From Tridacna crocea (taxonomy: Eukaryota; Mollusca; Bivalvia; Cardiida; Cardiidae): a stretch of 64,000 nucleotides of DNA. Positions within the stretch are counted from its first letter, which is position 1, and the number at the start of each line of letters is the position of its first letter. A model generated the notes under the pieces. It made no database searches and was not told the DNA's origin. It worked only from the letters and a program-made list of their open reading frames with translations. Shown here piece after piece: positions 1-64,000 of the stretch. Position numbers and translations under genes: made by a program. The stretch is taken from NCBI GenBank assembly GCA_943736015.1, contig OX031057.1, positions 59,292,001-59,356,000 on the forward strand. The letters run 5' to 3'.

Positions 1-48
1 AAGTTGTTGTCGCTGTTGATGTGGTCGCCTTTTCTGTTGTTGTTCTTT
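1..48 (-). CDS. Exon 24: start of next Thr-rich exon (cut by window edge)
   Basis: The acceptor TCATATGCAG is followed by AA AGA ACA ACA ACA GAA, reading ERTTTEKATTSTATTT. It is nearly identical to the first 48 bases of exon 20, including the upstream intron. The exon continues leftward out of the window. Confidence 0.82.
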
Positions 49-3000: not shown

Positions 3001-6000
3001 CTTTACCAAACGACAAAATTTTAGACACGTCCAAATTGAAAGCATTTGCAGACGACAAAAATATTTGTGACTCAAAAATTAAACTTGACTTCAGAACAGT
3101 AGAAAACATTGTGAGAAATGGAGAAAATGCTGGTAACCAGCATTTTCTCCTTTTCCCACAATATTTTCAGAAGGCTTCTTCCTCTGGCCGTAAAAAAAAA
3201 CAAAAAAAAACAGGGGGTTGTCTGATAAAGGGTTAAAGTCCCGAATGCAGTCCTCGTATCAGCTCAAGAGGAATATACGACAAGATAAAATAAATGCCCA
3301 GAAAAAGGCAGTTTATTGCATGTCTGTCATGCATGACACCATGAAAATCACCTCATAAACTTGAGCAATAATATCCGTTGCGTAGATCTATAACAACCGA
3401 CTGAATCATGAGGTAGACCGGTCCTTTGACATGCAAAGGAAGTAAACATAAAAAAAAAGTTTCGAACGGGGTCGATACTTTTTTGCAGATGCAGTAAGTC
3501 TCCCTTTTAAAAATAATATATAGGCCTGCAACACGCGAAAAGGGTCATTCAGACATTTGCGTAAAGTGTCTTCTCGGATCAGCCTGCGCAGTTTGAATGC
3601 CCCTTTTGCGTGCGTTGCAAGCCAATTATACCTACCGTCACAGACCCTGATGTCCAATTTAAATTTTGATTCAGGAGATGATATGTTTCCTGTCACGGTA
3701 ATGTTGATAGTTGAAATGTATATACCATCCTCCATAATAATTGGTCTGTTACTGACCTGTGTCTGTAAAAAAGCAAGTATGATCTTTGCTTCATTGTCCT
3801 TGCAAATGTTTGCCTGCAGGCTGTCGTAAAACCATCTTAGCAAGCCAAGGATAACGATCAACTACGCTACTCTACCCTTGGCGGATTGAGCTTAATTTCG
3901 ACAATCACCCGATACGCATTTTCATTGGTTGCAACTAGCTCTAACTGCACCAAATCAAATCGCTCGTAGCATTTCATCTTTGATAAAAATAGAACAGGGT
4001 CGCGAGAAAAATAGAAGGTAAACATGAACACCTCCGTGGATGTGTGCAGCATCTGTAATGGCTTATTACCGAAGAAAACATAAACAAACAATATTTACAT
4101 AAAGTTTCAATGTGACCAATCAATTATCAGATGTTTTAGGCTATACCCCAGCACCTGACCATGGAATGTCGATGTACGGTTGTTGTTATTGCTTCATGTT
4201 GAATTATTGTATTCGTAAGCGGTTTGTAAAACGATATTTCATTGGCTATAAGAAATATGATGTAAAGGGAGATAATAAGCAGCATCCAATAGAGGGCGTG
4301 TCGTGGGAAATGGATTTTATAGATCCATGACCACGTGATGTATTGCTTGGTATCATGCATCATGCAGATGCATGAAGCCCCTTTTATCAGAAAGTAGTTC
4401 AACGTTTTATTACTTAACCAATTACCATACAATCCCTAATTTTGACGACCCTTATTGAAAGAAGCCTTTAGAAAACACTGTGGGAAAAGGAGAAATTGCT
4501 GATAACCAGCAATTTCTCCTTTTCCCACATTGTTTTCTACCCTTTACAAAATAAAAAAAAAATAAAAAAAATAAAAAATCAGTCACTTTTATTTTGCCGT
4601 CTGCAAATGCTTTCGATTGGGACAAGCCAAAAGTATTGTTACTTGGTGATGAGTTAAAGTGACATATACATAATTATGCTGTCATTTGAACAGATTTTGT
4701 CGTCTTCTAAATCTTTTACTTACGATTTCAATATCACTTCCATTCTGCAAGGTATAAGATACGGTGAAATATTCAATTCCAACCAGGTCCTTCAACTCAA
4801 CTCTACCGACTTTTATGCCATACGGGAAGACAATCTTTATCACCGCGTCGTCTGAATTACCAAGATCAAATGGTGGGACGTCATTTCCGGGTCTGTAAAA
4901 AGAAAACAAGAGCACTACATGTGGGTGCCAACCTTCGTTTGCGGATGCTTGATTTGAAGTGACAACTTTAAGTTCAAAAGGAAGATCATCTTCGCAAGCC
5001 AAGACTGACGATTCACTGCTCACATGTAAATCTACCCTTGGCGGATCGAGCTTGATTTTTAAGTTCACCCGATATGCTTTTTCATTGGATGCAGCCAGCT
5101 CTAGCTGCAACGAATGAAATCACTCGTAGCATTCATCTTTGATAAAAATAGAACAAGGTCCTTACCTTTCGAATAGAAGGTAAACATGGAAACCCACGTG
5201 GATGTCTGCTTATCGCTTCATGTGTATTCGTAAGCGGTTTGTAAAACGACATTTCATTTGCTTTTAGAAATATGATGTAAAGGGGGGTAATAACCAACAT
5301 CCAATAGAGGGCGCATCGCAGGAATCTCAAAATCGGGCTCAATCAGCCAAGGTAAGATCCACGTAGTGATTGTAAACTTGGCTCGCGAAGATGAAGGAAG
5401 ATCGAAATAACTGTGTCAAAAAATACATTACTAGTTAACTACCCTTGTTGAATACCATGAAAAACAACACTACTGCTCAATATTTCGGCTATTTCCATTT
5501 TCAAGAGTTAGAAACACTTTATTCTTCTAGAACATTTTTAGCGTGCATCATGCAGTGTTGGACCGAACTATGGGGTTGACCCTCAAAGTTCGTATGAATG
5601 TTAACCCCATAGTTCGCTCCAACAATGCAGCCATATTGTTTTACTCATATTTGTTGAATAGATTCCCTTTTTCACAACCAATAACACGTAGATCTACAAC
5701 TTTTATTAATAATGGAGATATTTGAAAAATATTCTTCTTTCTGCCGTGGTTTATCGTTCAATAAACCACAATTGTGACTTATGAAGCACAATAAATAATC
5801 CATAAGGGCGATAGTCATTGCATCTTATAACTCACAAAGTAGTTTATTGAATGATAAACCGCGATAGAAAGGAGATTTTTTTTCGATTCTTGCATGATTA
5901 ACTATTAACGAAAAGAAAACAACTTCATACTTGGAGTAAAAACGCGGATGCAGACTGTATTCCATTGAAAAACTTACATGTACTTATACAGAGTCAATGT

Positions 6001-12000: not shown

Positions 12001-15000
12001 ACGAGGTTAAGCCCCGATATTCACGTGGATATTACGTCATTTTTTAGCGATGATGCAATGATGACGTTTCATTAGCGAATCAGCCAACTCCATATATTGG
12101 TGAAAGGGCGTTTCTTTGTGAATAGTGGATTCCGTATATGGGACATTATTTTAGCAATGATGTAATGTGGGCGGAAAAAGACTAAGTCAGTTAAACACTA
12201 AGAAGTTCAAAATTAAACGATTTAAACAGCCACAGTCGGTCGCTACGCTCCCTCCTTTTGGCTGTTTAAATCGTTTAATTTTGACTTCTTAGCGTTTAAC
12301 TATTACTTGCAACCTAAAAAAAATACACTATGCCAACAGTGAATAGAGTATGAATGGTCGACGTCATCAGTTACATCATTTAAAATACGTCAGCGATCGA
12401 TTTCTATGAAGCCAAGGTCACTGAGTTATATTTAGTACACTGTGTAAACGGAAAAATCACTCTCTTGCATAAATGAACTTGATTTTTTGTTTCATGACGG
12501 AGTTAAACTTTTTTATTGCGGGGATTAGGTTAAGAAAATGCTATTGATCAGAAAAAAATTATCGTGGATTTGATGGAATGTGTATAATGAAAGAACTGTT
12601 GGAGAAAGGATCGAAAGAAGTGAATACACATTTTGAAATGTTTGCGTGATAGGAACGATATTAGAAACTAGCTTAGAACTGGGAAACCATAAATACATAC
12701 TGATAAATTAACAGCTGCGACACCGTTGTTTTATGTTCTAATAAGTGGGTCACAAAACGTTGGCGTCATTCGATTCATATCTTACAAGAAACATAGGATA
12801 GACCAAGTCTTATATCGGCATCAGATAGATACTCATCGAGAACAGATCTGCCGACGGTACGTACGCATATTCTTTACAAATTATCTACGAAAAGGTCACT
12901 AGAAAGAACACATCGTCTGCTTATCCTCAAGTTTAGATAGGTGATTGTATTGTTCATATAGATCTACATAATCATTTCTTTCTTAAATTTTGTTCGATGA
13001 ATCATCGAAAGTATGATTTCAAAGCCAGCAAAATGGCCGCCTTCGACAAAAAAAAAAAATGTTCAAAAGCTAAAAATAGATTGTGTATTCATCCCCGTTC
13101 TACCAAGTATCCGCGAAGGAAATTAACTCGTATTTACTGTCGTATTTGTCCGTGCATTTTTCTCTCTATCATTTTCGAAAAGTGATTTAAGTGAACAGCG
13201 AGTGCAATTATAAGGGTTGAGTGCAGATTTTTGTGTTTTCATCGAGATATAAAATGCAATTGCCTTATTACATGGCTTAACATAACGCCCTTTATTTGCC
13301 ATGTAATAAGGCAATTGCATTTTATATCTCGATGAAAACACAAAAATCTGCACTCAACCCTATAGTGTTTGCTTGTGTAGTAAAGGGTTCATTTACTTGT
13401 ATAAAGCTGCTACGACACATCATCCCCCAATATTTGGGGGATTGTAGTGATACGCGCTATAAAGCAGCAATGGAGAAAATGGCCTTTATCAATACGTCTG
13501 TCTGGTTTAGCTCCAGATTTCTCTAAACTGCTGATCATAGTTGTATGAATCGCACCAGGTATAGCGTTTTATTTAGTAAACGTTTTAGTTTGAAATTCGA
13601 AGTAAAGGTTGTCGCGTCGAAAAGTAGTCCGGTTCTGTACCAGGATGCCCAACCTTGATAGATGTGTATTTGTAGAATGCTATCTAGCGGGAGATAACAA
13701 CTTGAACCCAGGCCACACTACCTGTGGTTTATATCCCCATCAATAGAAACCAATAAAAAATTACCTGAGACTAGCCACAGTGTTATTTCTTCCAGTTGGG
13801 TCGGACGTGAAAATGTCGACATCATCGTCACCGATTATCGTCGCCTCGTCCATTCCCTTTATGTCCTGACAAGGAGGGACTGAAAATAAAAAAAGTTACC
13901 TTGTGAACTCTTCTACTGCCATAGGATGCCTATCCTTAAGTAGTAAATTAAAAGTTAAGAATGGTTCGTGAACGAGAACTTGAAAAAAAAAATGAAGCAG
14001 AGAAACCGTTTTTTTTTTTTGCCAGAGCATGATCGTTGGGTTACTCCAAATTTTATGAACCTTGAAAGATATAGAGGATATTTGTTTATTTTGGTGAAAT
14101 ATCGTAATTCATTTCATCATGTGAACACCATTGGTAACATTTTCACGAGTGGCGCAGCTATTCCCCGTGGTGTACCCATTCTGCATAGCAACCCGTTACA
14201 ATATTACGTCAAGCGCGAGGTAATGTAAGGTAAATGATGTCATATTTCCATCTCAGTTGTGAGTCATGCGCAAATTACCTAGGTAACTAGGAATTATAAA
14301 TCGGGTTTTTTAATGGTCGTACCGGTGTAATATCGACCTATATTTTCACTGCTTTTTCTCGATATCCTACCGGAAAGCATGAAAGAATATCACTAAATTC
14401 AAGAAACAAAATCTCACCAACAGTTACGTTGTGAACTCTTCACCATACTATTCCCAGGTTAAACGACTCCAATTGGTTGTGCTTTTGAAAACATTGTGGG
14501 AAAAGGAGAAAATGCTGGTTGTCCCTTTTCCACAATATTTTCTACCCTATCAAAGATAAATTCTATCACTCGAGCCATATTCATTTGTCATCTAAACGTT
14601 TGTTTTTTTTCATTTGGACATGGCTTAAGTTTTGTTGTTTGGTAGTGACATTAACCAAAACGGCGACAAAATGTGGACATGACAAAATTGAAAGCACTTG
14701 CAGACGACTAATCAAGTATTGCTAAAATGATGATTTGTAGTTTTGATGCGGCAGAAAACAGTGTGGGAAAAGGAGAAAATACCGGTTACTTGTATTTTCT
14801 CCTGTTTCCCGCAACGTTTTACAAAGGCTTTATCCTTTGATACGATAAAACTCGGGGTTATGTGTTACATGTTAGCTTTATTCTTGTTCAATAAATCAGT
14901 TATTGCCCCTTTCACGAGTTTTCAAACATTACTGAACAAAAGGGGGTTTCAATTTCTAGTGTTTTTTATCGTTTCCTTCAGCAATACACAGTCATGTTTT

Positions 15001-18000
15001 TTTTCCAATGGTGTTTTATGACACAAAGTCATTTGTGATCATTTAGTGTGCATTATCAAACATTGACAGAATTACGGATAGGACATCCTATGGGGATTCG
15101 TGTACTATCGCCTTTCTTCAGCAAAAATCGTACGGTTTCGGCTAAGGAAATCCGTAATCATGCGGGTACCAGCGTCTATCGGCCAATCGATTACGTATAA
15201 TCCGAATCCTATTGAAATCTGTACGTTTTTTGGGGATGAATGGTGATATTACAAGAATCAAATAAAGGTAGTGGACACGTAATAGAAACCTGCTATTTCC
15301 AATATAACATCATACTATCAAAACTTGCTATGATTAAAAACGAGTGTTATTGTAACACTTTAACCGAACCACTTTTTCCTTTTTTTCCATCATGGAATTA
15401 TCATTTATAAATCTAAAACCACTATATTCTCATGAAAAAGGTAGATAACAATTACCTTCCTTGGTGGTTGTCTCTGTCGTAGTAGTTGTCCCTGTAGGAG
15501 TCGTTGAAGTTGTTGGAGTGGTTGAGACTGTAGGAGTGGTTGAGACTGTAGGAGTGGTTGAAATTGTTGGTGTAGTTGAAACTGTTGGAGTTGTTGAAAC
15601 TGTTGGAGTTGTTGAGACTGTTGGGGTTGTTGTCTCTGTAGGAGTGGTTGTCTCTGTTGGAATGGTTGAGACTGTAGGAGTGGTTGAGACTGTAGGAGTG
15701 GTTGAAATTGTTAGTGTAGTTGAGACTGTTGGAGTTGTTGATATTGTTGGAGTTGTTGTCTCTGTAAAAGTGGTTGAGACTGTTGGAGTGGTTGTCTCTG
15801 TGGGAGTTGTTGTCTCTGAAGGAGTGGTTGTTTCTGTTGGAGTGGTTGAGACTGTAGGAGTGGTTGAAACTGTTGGAGTAGTTGAGGCTGTTGGAGTTGT
15901 TATCTCTGTAGCAGTGGTTGTTATTGTTGGAGTTGTTGTCTCTGTAGGAGTGGTTGAGACTGTTGGGGTTGTTGTCTCTGTAGGAGTTGTTGAGACTGTT
16001 GGGGTTGTTGTCTCTGTAGGAGTGGTTGTCTCTGTTGGAATGGTTGAGACTGTAGGAGTGGTTGAGACTGTAGGAGTGGTTGAAATTGTTAGTGTAGTTG
16101 AGACTGTTGGAGTTGTTGATATTGTTGGAGTTGTTGTCTCTGTAGAAGTGGTTGAGACAGTTGGAGTGGTTGTCTCTGTGGGAGTTGTTGTCTCTGAGGG
16201 AGTGGTTGTTTCTGTTGGAGTGGTTGAGACTGTAGAAGTGGTTGAAACTGTTGGAGTAGTTGAGGCTGTTGAAGTTGTTATCTCTGTAGCAGTGGTTGTA
16301 ATTGTTGGAGTTGTTGTCTCTGTAGGAGTGGTTGAGACTGTTGGGGTTGTTGTCTGTGTAGGAGTTGTTGAGACTGTTGGGGTTGTTGTCTCTGTAGGAG
16401 TGGTTGTCTCTGTTGGAATGGTTGAGACTGTAGGAGTGGTTGAGACTGTAGGAGTGGTTGAAATTGTTAGTGTAGTTGAGACTGTTGGAGTTGTTGATAT
16501 TGTTGGAGTTGTTGTCTCTGTAGAAGTGGTTGAGACAGTTGGAGTGGTTGTCTCTGTGGGAGTTGTTGTCTCTGAAGGAGTGGTTGTTTCTGTTGGAGTG
16601 GTTGAGACTGTAGAAGTGGTTGAAACTGTTGGAGTAGTTGAGGCTGTTGGAGTTGTTATCTCTGTAGCAGTGGTTGTAATTGTTGGAGTTGTTGTCTCTG
16701 TAGGAGTGGTTGAGACTGTTGGGGTTGTTGTCTCTGTAGGAGTTGTTGAGACTGTTGGGGTTGTTGTCTCTGTAGGAGTGGTTGTCTCTGTTGGAATGGT
16801 TGAGACTGTAGGAGTGGTTGAGACTGTAGGAGTGGTTGAAATTGTTAGTGTAGTTGAGACTGTTGGAGTTGTTGATATTGTTGGAGTTGTTGTCTCTGTA
16901 AAAGTGGTTGAGACTGTTGGAGTGGTTGTCTCTGTGGGAGTTGTTGTCTCTGAAGGAGTGGTTGTTTCTGTTGGAGTGGTTGAGACTGTAGGAGTGGTTG
17001 AAACTGTTGGAGTAGTTGAGGCTGTTGGAGTTGTTATCTCTGTAGCAGTGGTTGTTATTGTTGGAGTTGTTGTCTCTGTAGGAGTGGTTGAGACTGTTGG
17101 GGTTGTTGTCTCTGTAGGAGTTGTTGAGATTGTTGGGGTTGTTGTCTCTGTAGGAGTGGTTGTCTCTGTTGGAATGGTTGAGACTGTAGGAGTGGTTGAG
17201 ACTGTAGGAGTGGTTGAAATTGTTAGTGTAGTTGAGACTGTTGGAGTTGTTGATATTGTTGGAGTTGTTGTCTCTGTAGAAGTGGTTGAGACTGTTGGAG
17301 TGGTTGTCTCTGTGGGAGTTGTTGTCTCTGAGGGAGTGGTTGTTTCTGTTGGAGTGGTTGAGACTGTAGGAGTGGTTGAAACTGTTGGAGTAGTTAAGGC
17401 TGTTGGAGTTGTTATCTCTGTAGCAGTGGTTGTAATTGTTGGAGTTGTTGTCTCTGTAGGAGTGGTTGAGACTGTTGGGGTTGTTGTCTCTGTAGGAGTG
17501 GTTGTCTCTGTTGGAATGGTTGAGACTGTAGGAGTGGTTGAGACTGTAGGAGTGGTTGAAATTGTTAGTGTAGTTGAGACTGTTGGAGTTGTTGATATTG
17601 TTGGAGTTGTTGTCTCTGTAGAAGTGGTTGAGACTGTTGGAGTGGTTGTCTCTGTGGGAGTTGTTGTCTCTGAAGGAGTGGTTGTTTCTGTTGGAGTGGT
17701 TGAGACTGTAGAAGTGGTTGAAACTGTTGGAGTAGTTGAGGCTGTTGGAGTTGTTATCTCTGTAGCAGTGGTTGTTATTGTTGGAGTTGTTGTCTCTGTA
17801 GGAGTGGTTGAGACTGTTGGGGTTGTTGTCTCTGTAGGAGTTGTTGAGACTGTTGGGGTTGTTGTCTCTGTAGGAGTGGTTGTCTCTGTTGGAATGGTTG
17901 AGACTGTAGGAGTGGTTGAGACTGTAGGAGTGGTTGAAATTGTTAGTGTAGTTGAGACTGTTGGAGTTGTTGATATTGTTGGAGTTGTTGTCTCTGTAGA

Positions 18001-21000
18001 AGTGGTTGAGACTGTTGGAGTGGTTGTCTCTGTGGGAGTTGTTGTCTCTGAAGGAGTGGTTGTTTCTGTTGGAGTGGTTGAGACTGTAGGAGTGGTTGAA
18101 ACTGTTGGAGTAGTTGAGGCTGTTGGAGTTGTTATCTCTGTAGCAGTGGTTGTTATTGTTGGAGTTGTTGTCTCTGTAGGAGTGGTTGAGACTGTTGGAG
18201 TGGTTGAGACTGTCTGGGTTGTTGAAAGTGTTGGAGTGGTTGTCTCTGTTGGAGTGGTTGAGACTGTTGGAGTTGTTGAAACTGTTGATACCGTTGAAAT
18301 TGTAGAAGCGGTTGGGATGGTTGATACTGTTGGAGTAGTTGTCACTGATGAAGTGGTTGTTTCTGTTCGTGTGGTTATCTCGGTTGAAGTTCTTGTCAAT
18401 GTTGAAGTTGTTGTCGCTGTTGATGTGGTCGTCTTTTCTGTTGTTGTTCTTTCTGCATATGACATAATTATTTGTAAAATTGAAGAAACTTTGTTTCTTA
18501 AATAAATATCTTTTTATATCAAATATTAAACATTTGAAATTATGGAAACATTAGATTTTGGTTATTTAAGTAAGTGGCATTGATTTTTTCTCAATTGAAA
18601 CAAACCACTTTTTTTCAGACTCCCTCTTCCGCTTTACCGAAACTACTTTGAATTATAGGCAACACGGCCATTCTCAATAAGTAGGAACACACTGTAGTCT
18701 TTCCGATACAAGAACAATTCTGCATTACAAGTTATAATTTTAGGGGTTAATTGGTACATACATATACGTATTATATCATTTGAATAATTTAGGTGAAATT
18801 CTTCTATAACAAAATACACCGTAATTATCTAGTTTTATACCTGCCACATTAAAATTTCCATTACTGTCGCCACCGTGGAATTTACTTTATAAGAACGTTT
18901 TCCAATAGTAAAATTTCATCCCTATAAAATCTCATTCCTATCATCGAAAAAAAAAAAAAGAGTTATTATTATTGATTTGTCTACTAACGGTGTTGGATGC
19001 ATAACACTCACAGATATCAACGACTGTATAAATTTTGTCTGCGAACTAATTGTCGCCAGGTTTTTTTTAATATCTAAGAAAATAACGTTACCAGATGATT
19101 TGTGTCGAAATACATTTAATTCATGTGACTTTAATCTTTTTTATGTAAGTGTGTGAACTTCACATAGCATCAAGGAAATAATACTAAGTTATGTCAATGT
19201 AGCTTTGATGATATCAAATATCCAGGATGAAGGGTGGTCTTTTTTGCTATGTAAACTTAAAATTTCCGTTACTGTTAACTCTTTGGCTGCTAAGCGATTC
19301 ACTGACCTTTTGCAGACAATGTAGATCAAGATCAGACTGCACATAGCGTGCAGTCTAATCTTTGATCTACACTGTTCGACGAGGAGATATTGATTGTTCC
19401 CTAAAACATATCTTTGAAATAGCAATATTTGGAGTTAGACTATCCTAATGAAATTTTCATTTCAGTTATTTAGCAGGGTAAGGATTAATGCCTCGTCTCC
19501 AATAAGTAACTTGGTCTATCTAAAGTGGCGTGATTAATTGTTTACAAATAGTGGCAATAAATATCAGTAATTTACGGGGTTATGTACACCTACTATCAAG
19601 TGAAACATTATTAGTTGTACGTTCAGGTGACAGGGGACTTGGAAACTTGTAAATGGCTGTGTTGGAAGCAGAAGGCGAGGTGGCGACATAACTTGAAACA
19701 GCCGTGAACAAGTTTCCAAGTTCCCTGCCACCTGACCGTACAACGAATTTATCATACCGCAAAGTTTCACCCTTTCAAAGCGTGTTAAGCGATATTTTCC
19801 TGTTTTATAGTCTCAAGAATCGAGTAAGTTGACAAAACAAAAATTCCCTTCTATGTGCCCCAATGCAATGAAAACTGACTTTTTTTTTTCGATGATAGGG
19901 ATGAGATTTCACTGGGATTTGCCGTCACTAAAATGTGCAGTCTGGTTCATAAACGTGCAGTCTCCTGATCGATCGACGCCGTCATTTTGGATGTTGTGTT
20001 GCAAGTGTAATGCAGACGGGGCAATCAAAAGGGAAACTGCTTTTACGTGGTTTTTGCCAGTGTACACGATTATAATTATGTTCAGGGCATATTATCCAAT
20101 CAGATCTCTAGAAATTCCTTTGCAGTATAATAAAACGTTGTGTTAATCGCAAGTTGTTTGTGGAAATGCTAATGAGTAGGTAGTACTTATGCATTCATTT
20201 GTAAAGTTTTCATGTTAGAACGAAATATTCATTATGAAACCAACTACATTTTCTGATGGGACTTATTTTTGCACAGTGCCTAGGTCGTCCCCAAATACAA
20301 CAGACACAGCATAGTCTGATTTCTGACTTAATAATTTCAAAATCTGAAAAGTTTCCAATCAAGCAAGAACATCTGAAAAGTTGCAATATCTCTATTTATC
20401 GAATGTTATAAAAATCAAAATAAAACACTTTATGTTTTCTGTGCTAAGCCAGTAGACTGCGGTTGACATTTCAGCAAGAAAACCACTTTTTATAGAAGAG
20501 TATGTAGAGATCTAAATATCAATTTGTACATTGGTTTACATAGTACTCGCCATTATGTTAAATTCACATGAAAGCATCTCTTAGATATTCCTTTTTTGTC
20601 CATTTCTGACGAACCAGTGTCATAAATTTACGATATAATCCTCTTTCTATCGTGGTCTATCGTTCAATAAACCACAGTTGTGAGTTATGAGGCACAATAA
20701 ATACTCCACGAGGCTGTTAGCCTGAGTCGTTTATTCATCGTGCCTCATAACTCAAAACATGGTTTATTGAACGATATACCACGATGGAAAGAAGATTATT
20801 TCGATTCTAACATGACCATACTGGTTCATACTTATAGTAAAAACGCGGATGCAGATTATACTCCATTGAATAACTCACTTTAGACAGAATGATTTCACTC
20901 TAAATAGAATGACGTCACTTTATATGGTATGACGTAGATTTTACCACGCTTTCGTTTCACTGTGTTCATGGGGCCAAATTCACGTGTCATGTTAGAATAG

Positions 21001-45000: not shown

Positions 45001-48000
45001 TCTATAAACCATAGGCCGCTAAGCAGGACCCACTGATTTGATCTTGAATCTACACTGTCCTTTCATTTTTTTTGTTTTGTTTTGTTTTTGTGTTTTTTCG
45101 AACACATACGTTTGAAATAGCACTATTCGGGTTTCCAGTATAGGCTTCATATTTCAATAATTCAGTCTTAGTTTTCTTCATGAGCATTGGCGAGTTCTGA
45201 TTGCCTGGTTTTTGTTCATAGCTCCATGGAAAAAAACAGTAGTGCCTGGACTACTGCTGCAGTCAAAGTAGTGTAAACACGAGATTTCATAATGGTTTTC
45301 TTTCTATAGATATTCAGAGAGAACTGAAAACTCATTGTCACTTTGCTGGGTTGAAACAATCTTTATTTTCAACTTCTAGCATATTGAACTTCTAATAATA
45401 AATCTACTAAACCTGCAAAAGTTCAATACTATATTCTAATATGACACGCGAATTCGGCTCTATAAACACAGTGCAAGGAAAGCGTGGTAAAATATGTGAC
45501 AATCGATGCAGAGTGACGTAATTCTATATCGAGTGACGTCATTCAATGAGTGGGTTATTCAATTGAACATAGTCTTCATCCGCGTGTTTACTCCAAGTTT
45601 GAACTTGTTTTCCTTTTATTAAAAATTGGCCATGTTAGAATCGAAATTATCTTCTTTCTATCATGGTTTATCGTTCAATAAACCACGTTGTGACTTATGG
45701 GGCGCAATAAATAAACCACTCTGGCTATCGCCCTCTTGGATTATTCGTTGTGCCTCATAACTCACAACTATGGTTTATTGAACGATAAAACACAATAGGA
45801 AGATTATTTCTTAAATGACGTCACAAGTTTAGGTCATTGTTACGGCGGTATGAATTATGAATCAAATGGACATTAGAGAAATATGTAATGTTAGATTTTC
45901 AGTGAAAAGAGCTGGTAGTATTTTCAAGTGCATATTTTGTTATCTTTGATATTAATCATCTTTGATATTAAGTTAGATTTATAAGGAATGAAGTTTTTTT
46001 TTTCATGGAGGTATGAAAAAAAAAAATCTGCTAATCACACTTCGCGGTTTCATACAGTGTGATTAGGGTTTGTTTTACCTCCATGAAAACAAGAAAATTT
46101 CTCATCATTCCTTTATTGAATCTATTTGGCAGGAAAAGGGTTAAAGAATTCCATATTCTTCAGGACTTACCGTAACACAACCTGACATCGATTTCAACTT
46201 CTGCTGGTCCAGGAAAACTGCTATTTTTCATAAGAGTAATATCTATTTGTTCAATACCGATCGCATCACTGTACTCTGCTATTTCGTTGCCAAGATACGT
46301 CTGAAAAATCAAATCAATCGTATGATAATTGGCAAAGCCTGTAGGTCGATTCATGCTTAATTGTAAAATACAATACGGAACAATGGTTCTGTATTTAAGG
46401 CATCTGGCCCATAAAACATATGAGCCATGCTCTGGCAAAAGGGGCTTAATGTATTTGTGAAAAGTGTCGACCCAGGTCAGCCTGCGCAGTGCGCACAGGC
46501 TGACCTGGGCCAAACCTTTTTGCTTTTGGTCATTTTCTGTATGTCCAAGTGTAGTATATTGGTATATCCCAGAGATAGATGTAAAGGTATAGCTTGTGTT
46601 GGTATAATTGGACACTTTTACTGCCATGCTTTAGAGCTAGCTTTTGTAGCAACGTGGTAGAGTCTTTGCCTTGGGACCGGAAGTCCTTGATTCAAACCCA
46701 GCCAGAGACGGCTATTTGTGAGAACTGTTACACAAGGATATAAAGGTATAACTTGTGTTTGTGTAAGAGGACACTTATACTGCCTTACTATAGAGCTAGT
46801 TATTGTAGCAACGTCACGGGTAGAGTGTTCCCATTGAGACCCGGATGTCCTGGGTTCCAACCCTGCCAGGGACGGCTATTTGTGAGAACTGTTACACAAG
46901 GACCTGTCTACTCTATGATTAGGTCGATTGTTACACAGGTGGCAATACCATGGATCTATGATTTTTGATGACTTGCTTGACATCATGCATCAAGGAGGTG
47001 CATTAAACTCCCTTTTCAAAGATCACGGCTCATATGGAACATAAACATGAGAAGACACATTTCGTCGGTTTGCTTCCAAAACCTCGTTATTACAGCTTGT
47101 AACAAGCTGTAGTTACGAGGTTTTGGAAGCAAACCGACGATTTACAAATTTGGCATAAGCCAGTGGTGCAAAGGCATTTAAGATCAATAAAATAACGAAC
47201 TGAAACCACATGTTGATGATTTAACCTTTGGACTTATACGTAAATGAAATGAAAATATCCAATAGGGTGAAAATACCCAGATGTAGCTGCTGAAAACTTT
47301 TTGACCAGGATATTTCACCGGAATCGGGAGGTACAGATCTGTGACTAGACCATGTATTCTGTTGACCCACGATGCACTGTCCAAAAATTATCAAAATCCG
47401 TCAAAGGAGTCCAAGTCTTAAAGGCACATTAGCCCCCAAATGTAAACAACTCGGGGTCAAATCAAACACAACAGCCACGTGTGAAAATATTGCCGATGGT
47501 ATTCATTCGATGAAATAAATTTCGATCTTTCACTATTTATTTCATGCTGTTAAGCCTTTCTAAGACGAGTTTGATCAAATTCCTGTACTGTTTTTTCCGT
47601 TATTCCCCGTGGCCTACCCCTCCCGCATAGCAACGCATTACAATATTACGTCAAGTGCGAGAAATGTAAGGTATATGACGTCATAGTTCCCATCTGGTTG
47701 TTAGGCACGCGCAATTTACCTAGACAGCAAAAACGTGAAAATCGGTATTTTCACCGGTGGTACCAGTGTAAGATCAAAAAATATTTTCAGGGCTATTCCT
47801 CGATATCCTACCGGAAAGCATGAAATAAATATAATTCACTTGCGCCCCTGGATAAAATAAAGTATAACACAGCTTCTAAACCAACAAAATTTAAATATAT
47901 GATGTCAAAGATATTTACTTTTGGGACGGTTCCAGATCTTGGTGTCAGCGAGACCATATAATAATCAATCCCTGTATTTATCGGGAGGCTTATCAGGCCG

Positions 48001-51000
48001 ATCTGTGCATTGTATTCCAGCGTGATTGTTACTAGGATACCATAGCCCTGAAAGGTGTACGGACTGTTGTCGGGTCTGAAAATGGAAATAAATAAATTTT
48101 ATTTCATCAGCTTGTGGGGTGACGGCACTCGTTTTCTCATACCTTTCCCTTTTTTCGGCAAATATTTCCCTATATTAACCACAAGCTGATAAAATAAATT
48201 ATATATTATATTTCTTCTGATTATTTTGTCAACGAATGCTACTTTGAAAACTAGTGACCTCAAGTTAGTTAACCAGATTTTCGGCAGGAGGAAAATATTC
48301 ACTGCACATGACCGGGAAATAATTCCCCAAGCTTAAATGACGTCATTTCTTTACCCATAACATTTTTAAAAATAGACACAGTATGAAATATAATATACCT
48401 CTTTTATAATGGCTCCTGAAATTTCTGGGAATTTCTTTGTTCGCACAGAATCATAATTATAATTGTAACTTTTACAATTACCAAAGAGAGGAGGGGGTGG
48501 GTTTAATGTAGTAATATTTGTTTATGATACACACAGAGCTCCAGATAGAGGGAGTGGGTTTGATTTCAAAATTGAAAATATTAATTATTCTCCACTTAAA
48601 TCCTATGTTGTGGGTACTCATTAGAATCGTCTCATCGAGACGATTCTAATAAGTACTACAACATAGAGTTTGGAAAAGAAATAAAGGATTTAGTTTATCA
48701 TCACACCCTCTTATCTGAAGCTCTGTTCGCTGCACAATAAAATGGTGGAATTTTGGTAAAATGCAGAAATAAATTGACCTTTCTATATTGTGAGCTTTAT
48801 TTTATCGAATGAACATTGCATTACATTCCAGTGATTTTATGTCTTCATAATGGTCCTCCCCTACAAAATGACCCGTGGGCGTAAGGCAGAAAAATGACCC
48901 TCCCGTACAAAATGATCCGCGGCCGTAATGCAGAGAAAGGTTCTCCCCTACAAAATGATCCGTGAGCGTAATGCAGAGAAATGGTCCTCCCCTACAAAAT
49001 GATCCGCGGCCGTAATGCAGAGAAATGGTCCTCCCGTACAAGTTGACCCGCGGGCTTAATGCAGAGAAATGACCCTCCCCTACAAAATGACCCATGGGCG
49101 AAATGCAGAGAAATGGTCCACCCCTACAAAATGACCCGTGGGTGTAAGGCAGAAAAATGACCCTCCCGTACAAAATGATCCCCGGCCGTAATGCACAGAA
49201 ATGGTTCTCCCGTACAAGATGACCCGTGGGCGTAATGGAGAGAAATGGTGCTCCCCTACAAAATGATCCGCGGCCGTAATGGAGAGAAATGGTCCTCCCC
49301 TACAAAATGATCCGCGGCCGTAATGCAGAGAAAAGGTTCTCCCGTACAAGATGACCCGCGGGCGTAATGCAGAAAAATGACCCTCCCGTACAAGATGACC
49401 CGCGGGCGTAATGCAGAGAAATGGTGCTCCCCTACAAAATGATCCGTGGCCGTAATGCAGAGAAATGGTCCTGTCCTACAAAATGACCCGTGGGCGAAAT
49501 GCAGGGATGACCCACCCCTACACAATGACCCGTGGGCGTAAGGCAGAGAAATGGTCCTCCCCTACAAGATGACCTGTAGGCGTAATGTAGAGAAATGGTT
49601 CTCCCCTACAAAATGACCCACAAACATAACGCAGAGAAATGGTCCTCCCCTACAAAATGACCCGTTGGCGTAATTCAGAGAAATGACTCTCCCCTACAAA
49701 ATGACCCGCTAGCGTAATGCAGAGAAATGGTCCTCCCCTACAAGATGACCTGTGGGCGTAATGTAGAAAAATGACCCTCCCCTACAAAATGACCCATGGG
49801 CGTACTGCATAGAAATGACCTTCCCCTACAAAATGACCCATGAACGTAATGCAGAGGTTGGTCCTCCCCTACAAAATGACCCGTGAACGTAACGCAGAGA
49901 AATGGTCCTCCCCTACAAAATGACCCGTGAGTGTAATGCATAGAAATAACACTCTTCTACAAAATGACCCGTTGGCGTAATGCAGAGAAATTGTCCTCCC
50001 ATACAAGATGACCCGTTGGCGTAATGCAGAGAAATGGTCCTCCCCTACAAAATGACCCGTGAGTGTAATGCATAGAAATGACCGTCCCTACAGAATGACC
50101 CGTGGGCGTAATGCATAGAAATGACACTCCGCTACAGAATGACCCGTGGGCGTAATGCAGAGAAATTGTCCTCCCCTACAAAATGATCCGTGAGCGTAAT
50201 GCAGAGAAATGGTCCTTCCCTACAAAACGACCCGTGGGCGTAATGCATAGAAGTGACACTCAGCTACAAAATGATCCGTGAACGTAATGCAGAGAAATTG
50301 TCCTCCCCTACAAGATGACCCGTGAGCGTAATGAATAGAAGTGACACTCCGCTACAAAATGACCCGTGGGCGTAATGCAGAGAAATGGTCCTCCCCTACA
50401 AAATGATCCGTGGGCGTTATGCATAGAAATGACCTTCCCCTACAAAATGACCCGTGGGCGTAATGCAGAGAAATGGTCCTCCCCTACAAAATGATCCGTG
50501 AGCGTAATGCAGAGAAATGGTCCTTCCCTACAAAACGACCCGTGAGCGTAATGTAGAAAAATGGCCCTCCCCTACAAGATGACCTGTGAGCGTAATGTAG
50601 AAATAGCCCTCCCCTAAAAGATGACTCGTGGGCGTAATGCATAGAAATGACACTCCGCTACAAAATGATCAATGGGTGTAATGCAGAGAAATCGCCCTAC
50701 CCTACAAAATGACCCGTGAGCATAGTGCTGGGAAATGGTCCTTTCGTACAAGATGACCCATGAGCGTAATGCAGAGAAATGACCCTACCCCACAAAATGA
50801 CCCATGGGTCATTTTATTACATAGAGATATGACCCATGGATCATCATTCTACGTAGAGAAATAACCCAAGAGGATTATTTATCTATGTAGAATAATAACC
50901 CGGGTCATTCCTCAAAGTAGTGAAATGACCCATGGGCGTAATGCAGAGAAATGACACTCAGCTACTAAATGACCCGTGGGCGTAATGCAGAGAAATGGCC

Positions 51001-54000
51001 CTCCCCTACAAAATGACCCGTGGGCGTAATGCAGACAAATGACCCTCCGCTACAAAATGACCCATGGGTCATTTCATTACATAGAGAAATGACCCATGGA
51101 TCATCATTCTACGTAGAGAAATAACCCCAGTGGATTATTTATTTATGTAGAATAATAACCCGGGTCATTCCTCTACGTAGTGAAATGACCCATGAGTCAT
51201 TTTGTAGGGGAGAGCCATTTCTCTGCATTTCACCTGAACTTTTTTCCAAATAATGGCCATTTTGTAGCATTTTTGACAATTATATAAGAATTAGAAAAAA
51301 AGTTAAATAAGGAATGTAATAAATACGATAATCAAGTGGTTGTGTGTGACATTACCAAACGACAAAATCTTAGACTGGTTCAAATTGAAAGCACTTGCAG
51401 ACGACAAATTAAACATAACTAAAAAATTGCAGTTTGTTTCCAACAGGGTAGAAACATTGTGGGAAAAGGAGAAAATGCTGGTTACTTTTTCTCACAATGT
51501 TTTCAAAAGACATCTCATGGTCGTAAAAGCAGGAAATGTTTAGTCAAGACTTAAAAATCTGTCACTCGAATATTATACGGTGAAAAAACTCGATCTTCAG
51601 CCTCGATTTAAACCGCATCACAACCCATTCAAGCGACAGATTCTCAATTTCACACACCACCAGTTGATCATCCTCTTTAACCACTTTACCACACAAACAC
51701 AGCTTTAAACGACCCTGTGAAAGAAGCTTTTTGAAACATTGTGGGAATAGGAGAAAATGCTGGTAACCAGCATTTTCTCCTATTCCCACACTGTTTTTTA
51801 CCAAGCCTATAACAAATTTCAGTTTTTGAATCGCATTACTTTTGCCGTCTGCACATGCTTCCACTTTAGACCAGTCTAAGATTTTGTCGTTTGGTAAAGA
51901 GTTAAATACCGTAGAGCAGTAGCAGGAGCTGTAGATAGAGTATAACCGATCTTTTCTACGGCGATGTTTGAATCAGGTATGATGAAAGGATCAGACATTC
52001 CTGAAATCTCTTGGCAGGGATGAGGAGCTGGAATTAAAATAAGAAAAATAGATTTTAGGTAGGTATTTTTTTGTGAATTTTATAGCTACTCTCTACGTAA
52101 TATACATACATAAAGGGTAAAAGTAGTGAAATATACTAACTGGAAATGAAGTTTAAATGACAGTTATGTGTAAAGAAAAGTAGGTTCGTCAGTTAATATA
52201 ACATATATCGGCATAGAAATAAGAAAAATAATTAAATAACAAAATTCCAGTATACATTCTCGTAACTGTTTTTATCAGGCTTGATGCCATAAAAATGCCG
52301 ACAGTAATGGCATATGTTTTTGACTTAGGACATTCTGACAGAACAGTAAGTAACATACTTGTGACTTCTGTAGTAGGTGTAGTAAGCGAGGTTGTTGTTG
52401 TAGGCGTGTTACTTGTTGTCGGCGATGAGCCCGTTGTAGGCGTAGTATAAGGTGTGGTTGTTGTGGTGGGAGAGGTTGATGTTCTATAAGTCGTCTCTGT
52501 TGTAGGAGCAGTGGGAGAGGTGGTACTTGCTGATGATGTGGAAACGGTTGTAGGTGTGGTAGCCGTAGTAGGTGTGGTCCCTGTTGTGGTACTTGTTGGT
52601 GTAGTGGCGGTCGTCGGAGTAGTTCTTGTTGACGCCGTAGACGTGGTGCTTGTTGTAGACGTCGTGCCCGTTGTAGACGTCGTGCCCGTTGTAGACGTGG
52701 TGCCCGTTGTAGGTGTCGTGGCCGTTGTAGACGTCGTGCCCGTTGTAGGCGTCGTGCCCGTTGTAGACGTGGTGCCCGTTGTAGACGTCGTGCCCGTTGT
52801 AGATGTCGTGCCCGTTGTAAACGTGGTGCCCGTTGTAGACGTGGTGCCTGTTGTAGGTGTGGTGACTGTCGTGGATGATGTGCCTGTTGTGGTGGTTGTA
52901 CCTGTTGAAGGTGTTGTCCTTGTTGTTGGAGTTGTAATTGTTGAGGTTGTTGGTGTTTCTGGTATAAAAGTATATCAGATTGATACATACATGTATGACA
53001 TGGAATAAGAACATGACTTCAATCTAAATAGTCAACAGTCTGTACCACTTTGAAAATTCTTATTTCCCAAACCAGTGGCGTTCTGATCTTCAGTTTACCT
53101 TTTTGTCAGCTCACAAAATTTTAAAACTCTTTGAAGTAGAAAATGTATCTTGTAAAGTGCATTTTCTGTTCTATCCATAATGTTTGGAAAGACGCCTTTC
53201 CTTTTAGGGTCGTTAAAACACTGGGTTGTTTGGTAAAACTCAATACTTAAAAAAGGATTGGTGAAGGTTCCCGTCCTTAAAATATTCTTGCCAAAATGGC
53301 GGACATTTTTACATTGACTTTACCCCATGGAAAAAGGCTGGACATGTCTTGACAAATGTGGGATATTTCTCTAGAAAATGCAAGAATATTCCCTAGACGG
53401 AGTAGAATGCTCGTATGTCCTCAAAAAAGCGGAAGAAAATGACTGTGTAAATGTTTTTTTTTTCATGGCTCACAAGCGTATCAGAATCGTTAGATAAATT
53501 ATTTAGGAATAATTGGTCGGGTCAACCCTTAGATTGCTATGCGCGACTCACTTACTTTTTGCGGTCAGAGTAGGTCAAGATCAGACTGCGCTTTTTTCAG
53601 ACTGCACAAAAAGTGCAGTCTGATCTGTCATCAATACTGTCCGATTAGGAGGTGTTATTCCCAAAAGCGTAACTTTTAAACAGCCCTATTTGCGTTTTTA
53701 ACATCGAATGGAAAGTCTAAATTTAGCTATATAGCAGGTAACGGGTTAACCCTTTCCCGAACAAGCCCTGGTTTGCACGATCTACAGATAGAAATCTTTT
53801 GAAAACATTATGGGAAAACGAGAAAATGCTGGTAACCAGCATTTTCTCCCTTTCCCACAATGTTTTCTGCCCTACCGGAAACAACTTTCAATTTTTGAGT
53901 CACTATTTTTTTGCCGTCTGCAAGTGCTTTCAATTTGGGCATGTCCAAAATTTTGTCAGTTGATAAAGAGTTAAACAAATTCTCGTCATCTTCAAGCTAC

Positions 54001-57000: not shown

Positions 57001-60000
57001 ATTTCGACTCTTTGGATGAGGAATTCGATCAATTCGCCCTCCTCTCAATTAATTGGAATTAATATCTAGGATCCAGTACGGAGAGGTTTTATTATTTTAT
57101 TTTTCATTCATTATTATCATGCCATGTCAATTAACCCTGCGTCACCATTATAATACTGATGTTTATTCATTTTCGTACAATGTTTTGTAAAATATGTAAC
57201 CTTAAATTAAATGTATTACTAGTAGTACGATAAAAATATAGTAAGGATACGCTACGGTCGTTTGATCCGAAGCGAATTTTTGTGCATGTTCAAAAATTGT
57301 CAAGGACCGCTACAGATATACAAGGACTACTACGAATGACTACGGTTATAATACGGAGAGCTACAGACTAGTGCGAGTTGTCACGGACAATGCCGGAACG
57401 AATCCGTAGCTCTTCCGTGGCGGCCTTCCGTGAATGTGTGACCGGCGTATAAACGACCTCAATGAAGTTTTTCACATCTGTCTATCTGACGGTTAAAACT
57501 TCAATCGGAATTGATAAACTACGATAAAAAATTAATGTATGTTTGTCATCTGAAATATGGTTCGAAAGATTTCGATAGAAAATTAAAATCCAAGTTTTCT
57601 TTTGTAAGAGGAGCCTGCCAATTTTCAGAACGGTAAACTGGCGTATTGCCGGGCGATGAATATACCGATCTGCTGCATAACAATCCACTAGATACAGACT
57701 CGATAGGGATATGATGGCTACCATCACCCGTGGTATGCCGAATGAGCCTGACTGCAGACAATTGTCCAGAAACTAGTGCAAGGACAACATAAATAATAGG
57801 TAACGCCGTACGACTCAAAACGCACGTTTGTACAACCGTCAATCAAAAGAGGTGTGGCGAACCGAGCTTTCTGTCATTCTTGTACGGTTCTTTCCACCCA
57901 ACCGTAGCTGTCAGTCAATTAGAAAGTAGGGCAAACTGTAAGTTAGTTATTGATCAATATATTTCATTTGCATGAAACTAAATCGTCGGTCGGCTTCGCC
58001 TCCCTCCGATTTAATTTCATACAAATGAAATATATGATCAATAACTTATACATGCTTTGTTAGATTTTCAAGGAAAAGAGCTGGTAGTATTTTTCAAGTG
58101 CATATTTTGTTATCTTTGATATTGAGTTAGATCTAAAAGGAATGAAGATTTTCTTTCATGGAGGTATGAAAAAAAAAAAAATCTGCTAATCACACTTTGC
58201 GGTTTCATACAGTGTGATTAGGGTTTGTTTTACCTCCATGAAAACAAGAAAATTTCTCATCATTCCTTTATTGAATCTATTTGGCAGGAAAAGGGTTAAA
58301 GAATTCCATATTCTTCAGGACTTACCGTAACACAACCTGACATCGATTTCAACTTCTGCTGGTCCAGGAAAACTGCTATTTTTTATAACAGTAATATCTA
58401 TTTGTTCAATACCGATCGCATCACTGTACTCTACTATTTCGTTGCCAAGATACGTCTGAAAAATCAAAATCATATTCAATCGTATGATAATTGGCAAAGC
58501 CTATAGGGCGAATAATGCTTAATTTTAAAATACAATACGGAACAACGGTTCTGTATTTGAGGCATCTGGCCTATAAAACATATGAGCCATGCTTTGGCAA
58601 AAGGGGCTCAATGTATTTGTTAAAAGTGTCGACTCAGGTCAGCCTGCACAGAGCGCGCAGGCTGACCTGGGCCAAACCTTTTTGCTTTTGGTCATTTTCT
58701 GTATGTCCAAGTGTAGTATATTGATATATCCCAGAGATAGATGTAAAGGTATAACTTCTGTTGGTATAATTGGACACTTACACTGCCATGCTTTAGAGCT
58801 AGCTTTTGTAGCAACGTGGTAGAGCGTTTGCCTTGGCACCGGAAGTCCTTGGTTCAAACCCAGCCAGAGACGGCTAGTTGTGAGAACTGTTACACAAGGA
58901 TATAAAGGTATAACTTGTGTTGGTGTAAGAGGACACTTATACTGCCTTACTATAGAGCTAGCTATTGTAGCAACGTCACGGGTAGAGTGTTCCCATTGAG
59001 ACCCGGATGTCCTGGGTTCCAACCCTGCCAGGGACGGCTATTTGTGAGAACTGTTACACAAGGACCTGTCTACTTCATGATTGAGTCGATTGTTAAACAG
59101 GTGGCAATACCATGGATCTATGATTTGTGATGGCTTGCTTGACATCATGTATCAAGGAGGTGCATTAAACTCCCTTTTCAAAGATCAAGGCTCATATGGA
59201 ACATAAACATGAGAAGACACATTTCGTCGGTTTGCTTCCAAAACCTCGTTATTACAGCTTGTAACAAGCTGTAGTTACGAGGTTTTGGAAGCAAACCGAC
59301 GATTTACAAATTTGGCATAAGCCAGTGGTGCAAAGGCATTTAAAATCAATAACGAATTGAAACCACATGTCGATGATTTAACCCTTGGACTTATACGTAA
59401 ATGAAATGAAAATACAATTTGGTGAAAATACCCAGATGTAGCTGCTAGAGACTTTTTGAAAAGGATATTTCACCGGAATCGGGAGGTACAGATCTGTGAC
59501 TAGACCGTGTATTCTGTGTGGCTGACCCACGATGCACTGTCCAAAAATGATCAAAATCCGTCAAAGGAGTCCAAGTCTTAAAGGCACATTAGCCCCCAAA
59601 TGTAAACAACTCGGAGTCAAATCAAACACAACAGCCACTTGTGAAAATATTGCCGATGGTATTCATTCGATGAAATAAATTTCGATCTTTCACCAAAAAA
59701 AAAAGCAACAAATATTCTATTTATTTCATGCTGTTAAGCCTTTCTAAGACAAGTTTGATCAAAATCCAGTACTGTTTTTTTTTTCCGTTATTCCCCGTGG
59801 CCTACCCCTCCCGCATAGCAACGCATTACAATATTACGTCAAGTGCGAGAAATGTAAGGTATATGACGTCATAGTTCCCATCTGGTTGTTAGGCACGCGC
59901 AATTTACCTAGACAGCAAAAACGGTGGTACCAGTGTAAGATCGAAAAATATTTTCAGGGCTATTCCTCGATATCCTACCGGAAAGCATGAAATAAATATA

Positions 60001-63000
60001 ATTCACTTGCGCCCCTGGATAAAATAAAGTACAACACAGCTTCTAAACCAACAAAATTTAAATATATGATGTCAAAGATATTTACCTTTGGAACGGTTCC
60101 AGATCTTGGTGTCAGCGAGACCATATAATAATCAATCCCTGTACTTATCGGGAGGCTTATCAGGCCGATCTGTGTGTTGTATTCCAGCGTGATTGTCACT
60201 AGGATGCCATGGCCCTGAAAGGTGTACGGAACGTTGTCGGGTCTGAAAATGGAAATGAATACATTTTATTTCATCAGCTTGTGGGGTTACGGCACTCGTT
60301 ATTTTCGCATACCTTTCCCTTTTTTCGGCAAATATTTCCCCATATTAACCACAAGCTGATAAAATAAATTATATATTATATTTCTTCTGATTATTTTGTC
60401 AAGGAATGCTACTTTTAAAACTAGTGACCTCAAGTTAATTAACCAGATTTTCGACAGAAGGAAAATATTCACTGCACATGACGGGGAAATAATTCCCCCA
60501 GCTTAAATGACGTCATTTCCTTACCCATAACATTTCTAAGAATAGACACAGTATGAAATATAATATATCTCTTTTATAAGGCTCCTGAAATTTCTGGGAA
60601 TTTCTTTGTTCGCACAGAAACATAATTATAATTGTAACTTTTACAATTACCAAAGAGAGGAGGGGGTGGGCTTAATGTAGTAATATTTGTTTATGATACA
60701 CACAGAGCTCCAGATAGAGAGAGTGGGTTTGATTTCAAAATTGAAAATATTAATTATTCTCCACTTAAATCCTATGTTGTGGGTACTCATTAGAATCGTC
60801 TCATCGAGACGATTCTAATGAGTACCTACAACATAGAGTTTGGAAAAGAAATAAAAGATTTAGAATATCATCACACCCTCTTATCTGAAGCTCTGTTCGC
60901 TGCACAATAAAATGGTGGAATTTTGGTAAAATGCCGAAATAAATTGCCCTTTCTATATTGTGAGCTTTACTTTATCGAATGAACATTGCATTACATTCCA
61001 GTGATCTTATGTTTTCATAATGGTCCTCCCCTACAAAATGACCCGTAGGCGTAAGGCAGAAAAATGACCCTCCCGTACATAATGATCCGCGGCCGTAATG
61101 CATAGAGATATGGTTCTCCCCTACAAAATGATCCGTGGGCGTAATGCAAAGAAATGACCCTCCCCTACAAAATGACCCGTGGGCGAAATGCAGAGAAATG
61201 GTCCTCCCCTACAAAATGACCCGTGGGCGTAAGGCAGAAAAATTACCCTCCCGTACAAAATGATCCGCGGCCGTAATGCAGAGAAATGGTCCTCCCGTAC
61301 AAGATGACCCGTGGGCGTAATGCAGAGAAATGACCCTCCCCTACAAGATGACCCGTGGGCGAAATGCAGGGAAATGACCCACCCCTATAAAATGACCCGT
61401 GGGCCTAAGGCAGAGAAATGACCCTTCCCTACAAAATGACCCGTGGGCGTAATGCAGAGAAATTGTCCTCCCCTACAAAATGACCCATGGGCGTAATGCG
61501 GCATAGAAATGACCCTCCCCTACAAAATTATCCGCGGCCGTAATGCAGAGAAATGACCCTCCCCTACAAAATGACCCGTGGGCGAAATGCAGGGAAATGA
61601 CCCTCCCCTACAAAATGATCCGCGGCCGTAATGCAAAGAAATGACCCCCCGGACAAAATGACCCGTGGGCGTAAGGCAGAGAAATGGCCCTCCCCTCCAA
61701 ATGACCCGTTGGCATAATGCATAGAAATGACCCTCCCCTACAAAATGACCCGCGAGCATAATGCAGAGAAATGGCCCTCCCCTACAAAATGACCCTCTAG
61801 CGTAATGTAGAAAAATGACCCTCCCCTACAAAATGACCCATGGGCGTACTGCATAGAAATGACCTTTCCCTACAAAATGACCTATAAACGTAATGCAGAG
61901 AAGTGGTCCTCCCCTACAAAATGACCCGTGAACGTGACGCAGAGAAATGGTCCTCCCCTACAAAATGACCCGTGGGCGTAATGCATAGAAATGACACTCC
62001 GCTACAAAATGACCAGTTGGCGTAATGCAGAGAAATTGTACTCCCCTACAAAATGACCCGTGAGCGTAATGCATAGAAATGACACTCCGCTACAAAATGA
62101 CCCGTGGGCGTAATGCAGAGAAATTGTCCTCCCCTACAAAATGACCCGTGGGCGTAATGCATAGAAATGACACTCCGCTACAAAATGACCCGTTGGCGTA
62201 ATGCAGAGAAATTGTACTGCCCTACAAAATGACCCGTGGGCGTAATGCATAGAAATGACACTCCGCTACAAAACGACCAGTGAGCATAATGTAGAAAAAT
62301 GGCCCTACCCTACAAGATGACCTGTGAGCGTAATGTAGAAATAGCCCTCCCCTACAAGATGACTCGTGGCCGTAATGCATAGAAATGACATTCCGCTACA
62401 AAATGATCCATGGGTGTAATGCAGAGAAATCGCCCTCCCCTACAAAATGACCCGTGAGCGTAATGCTGGGAAATGGTCCTTTCGTACAAGATGACCGATG
62501 AGCGTAATGCAGAGAAATGACCCTCCCCTACAAAATGACCCAGGGCGTAATGCAGAGGAATGACCCTACCCCACAAAATGACCCATGGGTCATATTATTA
62601 CATAGAGAAATGACCCATGGATCATCATTCTACGTAGAGAAATAATCCCAGAGGATTATTTATCTATGTAGAATAATAACCCGGGTCATTCCTCCAAGTA
62701 GTGAAATGACCCATGAGTCATTTTGTAGTGGAGGGCCATTTTTCTGCATTTCACCTGAACTACCTTTTTTCCAAATAATGGCCATTTTGTAGCATTTTTG
62801 ACAATTATATAAGAATAAGAAAAAAAGTTAAATAAGGAATGTAATAAATACGATAATCAAGTGGTCGTGGGTGACATTACCAAACGACAAAATCTTAGAC
62901 TGGTTCAAATTGAAAGCACTTGCAGACGACAAAGTAAACATAACTAAAGAATTGCAGTTTGTTTCCAACAGGGTAGAAACATTGTGGGAAAAGGAGAAAA

Positions 63001-64000: not shown

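Follow-up and report, generated by a model that had tools for sequence, protein, structure and literature searches.

Introduction

The closest described systems are the gel-forming mucins MUC2, MUC5AC, MUC5B, MUC6 and MUC19, in which VWD-C8-TIL blocks lie upstream of a huge PTS region that is interrupted by small globular modules and includes tandem-repeat Thr sequence. In the vertebrate proteins the PTS region is encoded by one giant exon. The CysD module is characterized by a WxxW motif and approximately ten cysteines, and a role in cross-linking or binding has been proposed for it in MUC2, MUC5AC and MUC5B. FCGBP and VWF contain related D assemblies without a long PTS or domain array. A gel-forming mucin is usually defined by a signal peptide, VWD and VWC domains, a PTS region and a cystine knot, as outlined in PMC9080433. 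Passages of PMC10475054 report snail mucus proteins that group with the gel-forming mucins and mention no domain like the recurrent one described below.

The locus of Tridacna crocea analyzed here shares with these mucins the upstream VWD-C8-TIL block, the interrupted PTS region and the tandem-repeat Thr exons. It differs from the vertebrate proteins in that the interrupting modules, although in the same position as CysD, are not CysD (two cysteines, no WxxW), the PTS region is distributed over many exons, 20 modules were counted, and LDLa modules and an EGF-like module are added. The C8-TIL block matches the D assemblies of FCGBP and VWF at E values of 1e-46 to 1e-48. The recurrent globular domain resembles the F5/8 type C domain in its similar length, N- and C-terminal cysteines, Gly-Met after the first cysteine and a weak profile match, but is without the signature W and R-Y-I-R and without an F5/8 type C match in Pfam or PDB searches. 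The alternation of Thr exons and domains was not found in the titles and abstract openings of the literature surveyed, nor in passages of PMC9080433, PMC4650134 and PMC10475054, weak evidence of absence given that subscription papers are mostly outside this coverage.

Results

The window, the whole stretch of 64,000 nucleotides that was analyzed, is located at C2:59292001-59356000 of its own genome (1.05 Gb in 31 contigs), to which all searches of animal genomes were confined. The sequence-only reading had claimed that 24 exons can be chained in frame across it as part of a single regular mucin gene in which the order Thr-domain is repeated six times. The minus strand contains exactly 24 exons, identified independently of that reading's list and each defined by its own splice sites, that are joined in frame from position 64000 to position 1 with 2,356 codons and no stops (Table 1). 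Reading the joined DNA in the two alternative frames gives 94 and 80 stops. Every one of the 46 splice boundaries inside the window is canonical, with AG at 23 acceptors and GT at 23 donors. The Thr exons are of phase 1-1 and all module junctions are of phase 1. Three pieces with phases 1-2, 2-0 and 0-1 encode each of the domains A, B, E and F, and in domains C and D the first two pieces are fused, giving phases 1-0 and 0-1. The six-fold order was also borne out, with an additional short Thr exon and the Thr + LDLa-like exon preceding domain E. Random AG-anchored stretches of the same lengths and phases were open in 0.2% (ThrF) to 51% (ThrG) of 2,000 draws each, percentages that serve as a guide and not as P values because the exons were chosen. 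Both edges of the window cut through Thr exons, and the start and end of the gene are located outside. Thus, the sequence supports the claim of one regular mucin gene, predicted to be larger than claimed and to extend past both edges. Searches of the window for Rfam families and tRNA gave no matches, and a viral contig search gave 20 pattern matches with no relatives among them.

Table 1. Features of the window, in the order of the predicted transcript.
Feature	Position	Strand	Basis
Thr/Ser/Pro exon A, partial (full exon to C2:59356410)	63883..64000	-	chain
Domain A exon 1, phase 1-2	63434..63551	-	chain
Domain A exon 2, phase 2-0	60086..60242	-	chain
Domain A exon 3, phase 0-1	58326..58455	-	chain
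Thr exon B, 600 bp	52359..52958	-	chain + splice scorer
Domain B exon 1	51910..52027	-	chain
Domain B exon 2	47919..48075	-	chain
Domain B exon 3	46171..46300	-	chain
Thr exon C, 69 bp	44205..44273	-	chain + splice scorer
Domain C exon 1+2, phase 1-0; no detectable kinship to the other five	42175..42434	-	chain, hhalign
Domain C last exon, phase 0-1	39122..39278	-	chain
Thr exon D, holds 81-bp tandem unit, 3.4 copies	37910..38347	-	chain
Domain D exon 1+2, single uninterrupted exon, phase 1-0	36044..36324	-	chain
Domain D last exon, phase 0-1	33838..33973	-	chain
Short Thr exon, phase 1-1	31843..31935	-	chain
Thr + LDLa-like exon, CDGICDCTGCEDEEGC, two extra Cys	28751..28990	-	chain, Pfam, tblastn
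Domain E exon 1	25475..25589	-	chain
Domain E exon 2	22875..23043	-	chain
Domain E exon 3	21798..21924	-	chain
Large Thr exon, 2997 bp, ~7.4 copies of 378-bp unit	15456..18452	-	chain
Domain F exon 1, copy of E	13765..13879	-	chain
Domain F exon 2	4724..4892	-	chain
Domain F exon 3	3636..3762	-	chain
Thr exon, partial (continued to C2:59290114)	1..48	-	chain

The 290 kb around the window were examined by tblastn with the window exons. Upstream, four further modules of the A type were found, as well as Y, a divergent copy; downstream, the search revealed F', a second Thr+LDLa exon, E'', N and five D' modules approximately 13 kb apart, with 9.7 kb of examined DNA remaining beyond the last D' domain. 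The window and flanks together contain 20 globular domains, including the six of the window and domain Z, and 18 of the 20 belong to the recurrent family, the profile test having been performed with one representative for each of seven domain types.

A chain of 59 exons was assembled that starts at TIL3, runs through the TIL-E-LDLa-LDLa block upstream, domain Z and the window, and continues beyond to N3 (C2:59263202). It comprises 6,543 codons with no stops, all boundaries AG/GT and consistent phases; the other frames contain 230 and 204 stops. The TIL exon and the next exon join in frame between GCQR and CECEEGRLQC, the residues after the join reading on as those of a TIL-E module would, and two LDLa modules and domain Z then follow in phase. 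In module N, the Thr segment and the first two domain pieces share one uninterrupted frame (C2:59265516-59265062), which ties the two exon types together without a splicing assumption. Thr, Ser and Pro account for 60% of the chain residues, and pure Thr exons contain 41-63% Thr where the scorer assigned an exon.

The VWD, C8 and TIL exons upstream of the chain were recognized as HMM fragments, and the five D' modules are outside the chain. Of the 26 Thr ORFs of the examined region, 11 received no exon from the automatic splice scorer, 10 of them in the D' array, where both types of Thr exon have visible phase-1 AG/GT ends of weak consensus. One Thr ORF, at C2:59452152-59451955, was excluded from the chain for want of a usable phase-1 acceptor. 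The chain includes one intron of ~38 kb between two A modules (C2:59428436 to 59390772), in which tblastn detected no module exon, only a chance-level hit with a stop. A modules are otherwise 11-12 kb apart, compared with ~38 kb across C2:59390772-59428436, and this intron is possibly a large insertion.

Nineteen same-strand exon peptides from upstream were compared with Pfam, and matches above the curated cut-offs were obtained for VWD (four), C8 (two), TIL (two) and LDLa (two). The E values were 1.1e-6, 2.3e-5, 1.8e-6 and 5.8e-8 for VWD, with a further match of 9.6e-4 below the cut-off; 7.7e-6 and 2.8e-8 for C8; 1.2e-11 and 5.9e-6 for TIL, with 2.5e-4 and 0.021 below the cut-off; and 2.7e-8 and 1.2e-11 for LDLa. 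The best E value of an EGF-like peptide was 1.7e-4, under every cut-off, and five of the 19 peptides, including candidates for the first C8, matched no Pfam family. The VWD, C8 and TIL matches are ordered as in a D1-D2-D'-D3 block in which the first C8 is unrecognized. A C8-TIL query, joined by hand from several exons with one residue at a join not derived from the DNA, matched FCGBP (1.3e-48), VWF (2e-46), MUC2 (1.2e-35), MUC5AC (7.9e-24) and MUC5B (4.3e-17) in the PDB; all 27 PDB sequences at E values of 1e-5 or lower were one of these five proteins. These matches indicate that the gene is most likely of the gel-forming mucin type with a D1-D2-D'-D3-like N-terminus. When 14 of the upstream peptides were used for tblastn of the array side (below C2:59456000), no VWD, C8 or TIL relative was found with an E value better than 0.04, and the only good matches were to the two Thr+LDLa exons (1.4e-5 to 7.1e-4). 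With no second VWD/C8/TIL set detected on the array side by this search, the array has the appearance of the PTS portion of a single gene that carries one D block. The VWD motif normally reads CGLC. Two VWD pieces read QGLC and RGLC, with the cysteine before GLC replaced, and the polymer chemistry may differ given these replacements.

The LDLa insert claimed for the window received mixed support. The exon failed the Pfam cut-off for LDLa (E value 0.085, 13.5 bits versus 24.1). It was nevertheless matched by tblastn, with E values of 2.2e-5 and 6.8e-5, when the queries were the two LDLa exons from upstream whose Pfam scores exceed that cut-off. The motif, CDGICDCTGCEDEEGC, has two extra cysteines, both retained in a copy outside the window (C2:59274914-59277244); the retained pair suggests an extra disulfide.

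The recurrent domain is approximately 131-137 residues long, with two cysteines, one near either end, in A, D and E; the domain is probably closed by one N- to C-terminal disulfide. Domain C contains four cysteines. Gly-Met after the first cysteine and Leu-Arg approximately 30 residues later are present in all seven aligned copies. The family alignment for hhalign combined three window domains (A, D and E) with four copies located elsewhere in the examined DNA; B and F are near-copies of A and E. In all hhalign tests the rows for N and D' were slightly wrong at their boundaries, with two intronic residues included and four residues missing, respectively. In leave-one-out comparisons all seven members were recovered at 98.0-99.8%. 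Domain C scored 12.4 against the family profile, inside the null of 60 shuffles (mean 11.8, maximum 20.6), which rules it out as a demonstrable paralogue. Of the six domains that had been read as paralogous, A, B, D, E and F are thus one family, and C is unassigned.

The recurrent domain reached the curated cut-off of no Pfam family. None of five members matched NCBIfam, a prokaryotic library and thus a weak test, and a PDB search with the domain gave nothing better than an E value of 0.92, the hits at 0.92-1.3 being judged chance. The best Pfam match was Golvesin_C, which appeared at an E value of 0.002 in one of seven members and at 0.077 (13.5 bits versus a cut-off of 31.6) for D' with corrected ends, both values presumably from the one member, D'. 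DUF7035 (0.84) and Bombinin (0.24, domain Z) were judged chance. CysD (Mucin2_WxxW) was rejected on the basis of no WxxW in 6,543 residues, two cysteines in A, D and E and four in C, and no Pfam CysD match. AlphaFold modeling was applied to the exon 1+2 fragment of domain D only (93 residues, window-derived rows) and returned a pLDDT of 47.4, too low for a usable model.

An F5/8 type C (discoidin) profile aligned with the domain by hhalign from residue 1, with the cysteine and Gly-Met in register, and scored 27.2 compared with a maximum of 18.5 for 60 column-shuffled controls and 13.0 for the reversed control, at a probability of only 24.7%; the profile consisted of three rows, one a hand-typed consensus, and the family was selected after the pattern had been noticed. 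Pfam and PDB searches with the recurrent domain gave no F5/8 type C match, and the conserved W and R-Y-I-R features are absent. A discoidin-like fold is therefore a weak lead and not a classification.

Modules A and B are offset by 12.2 kb, and E and F by 18.4 kb at the start, dropping to approximately 11.7 kb. DNA divergence is 3.4% for A/B over aligned, mostly intronic DNA and 4.6% for E/F over 5,047 aligned, mostly intronic bases. By these comparisons both pairs are recent tandem copies, and the regularity of the array is in part the product of recent copying. The divergence of unit A of the window is 0.66-0.97% from three neighboring A units and rises to 2.0% for the farthest one. In E/F one nonsynonymous change was found in 320 sites (dN 0.003, dS 0.058); dN/dS is 0.30 for E/E'' and 0.40 for A/B, and synonymous sites are saturated between D and D'. 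The nonsynonymous rate is below the synonymous rate in 15 of 15 A-copy pairs and in the three E/F/F' pairs computed, although many of these pairs rest on one to three changes and are non-independent, and three E'' pairs were not computable. These ratios are indicative of purifying selection. The low nonsynonymous rates combined with the low divergence indicate that the modules are functional coding units that have been copied recently and repeatedly.

The window also contains several other repeats. A 44-bp minisatellite (units such as AAATGACCCGTGGGCGTAATGCAGAG...) is located at 48849-50808 in the B module and at 61025-62589 in the A module, each time in the intron that separates the first two domain exons, and belongs to the duplicated unit. 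A similar motif, AAATGACCC, is present at 38829-39009. An interspersed repeat of ~390 bp, probably a mobile element, is found at 2428-2816, 20628-20998, 34039-34416, 41456-41840 and 45433-45818, with shorter copies, in both orientations and with roughly 76-96% identity. A second interspersed repeat, of ~270 bp, is intronic and also in both orientations (21510-21791, 31953-32225, 36364-36640, 38466-38742 and 40440-40711).

Discussion

The results point with good confidence to a single giant, secreted gel-forming mucin whose gene lies on the minus strand and whose internal PTS region is the window. A group of smaller mucin genes that arose by tandem duplication, each repeated segment being its own transcription unit, would also produce copies 11-18 kb apart and a D' array of 13-kb units, both of which resemble cluster growth, and the D' modules are outside a chain that was built from sequence alone. 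The chaining of 59 exons with consistent phases and no stop makes this alternative very unlikely, as does the array side itself, where the 14 upstream peptides gave good matches only to LDLa exons and no VWD, C8 or TIL relative better than an E value of 0.04 below C2:59456000. That the chain is an artefact of low-complexity repeats and chance ORFs is almost certainly false: chance alone often leaves stretches as short as several of these exons open, but homologous copies retain frame and splice phases and diverge less at nonsynonymous than at synonymous sites, observations that already contradict it.

The nature of the protein has two further competing interpretations. In the PDB the D block is matched best by FCGBP, which is no mucin; this counts against the mucin reading and, together with LDLa exons above the Pfam cut-off and an EGF-like exon below it, would fit an FCGBP-, zonadhesin- or SCO-spondin-like VWD protein that is adhesive or matrix-forming and not a mucus gel former. 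We consider this quite unlikely, since a content of 60% Thr, Ser or Pro in 6,543 residues fits a mucin, and VWD-C8-TIL blocks followed by PTS fit MUC2/5. Less remote, but still doubtful, is that the globular domain is a true discoidin or galactose-binding lectin and the protein chiefly an opsonin or glue. The residue 1 to residue 1 alignment with the F5/8 type C profile, above all 60 shuffled controls, favors this interpretation, while the low probability of the match, the missing Pfam F5/8 type C hit and the missing W and R-Y-I-R features oppose it, and the comparison family was chosen post hoc with the three-row profile that includes a hand-typed consensus.

For a gel-forming mucin, the products of the Thr exons would be densely O-glycosylated and form stretched, hydrated bristles, the D assemblies would join monomers by disulfides into polymers or nets, and the ~135-residue domains, possibly discoidin-like beta-sandwiches, may act as spaced knots for cross-linking or ligand binding. 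The array would grow through duplication of whole Thr+domain modules, with every copy keeping the frame because each module is of phase 1-1. The suggestion of an undescribed mucin family is partly supported: the domain reached no curated Pfam cut-off and has no significant PDB match, and the titles and abstract openings surveyed show no such architecture, but the gene as a whole is of the known VWD-C8-TIL kind. The domain family may be lineage-specific, the animal genome searched being that of the window alone. The fullest version of our proposal stands at about an even chance: a giant gel-forming mucin in which an undescribed two-cysteine, possibly discoidin-derived domain family with 18 recognizable copies replaces CysD and gives the mucus polymer, at regular intervals, knots for binding or cross-linking that are not CysD, and in which copy number shifts by recent whole-module duplication and is probably variable between individuals.

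Most of this gene is hidden from simple ORF calls, a caution for annotation. If the proposal is true, this would be a gel-forming mucin of the VWF/MUC2 type using an interrupting domain other than the CysD of vertebrates, and one could test whether the design of beads between bristles is convergent. Modules that are nearly identical offer a natural system for the evolution of PTS length and bead number, and the recurrent domain is a concrete target for structure determination and glycan-binding assays.
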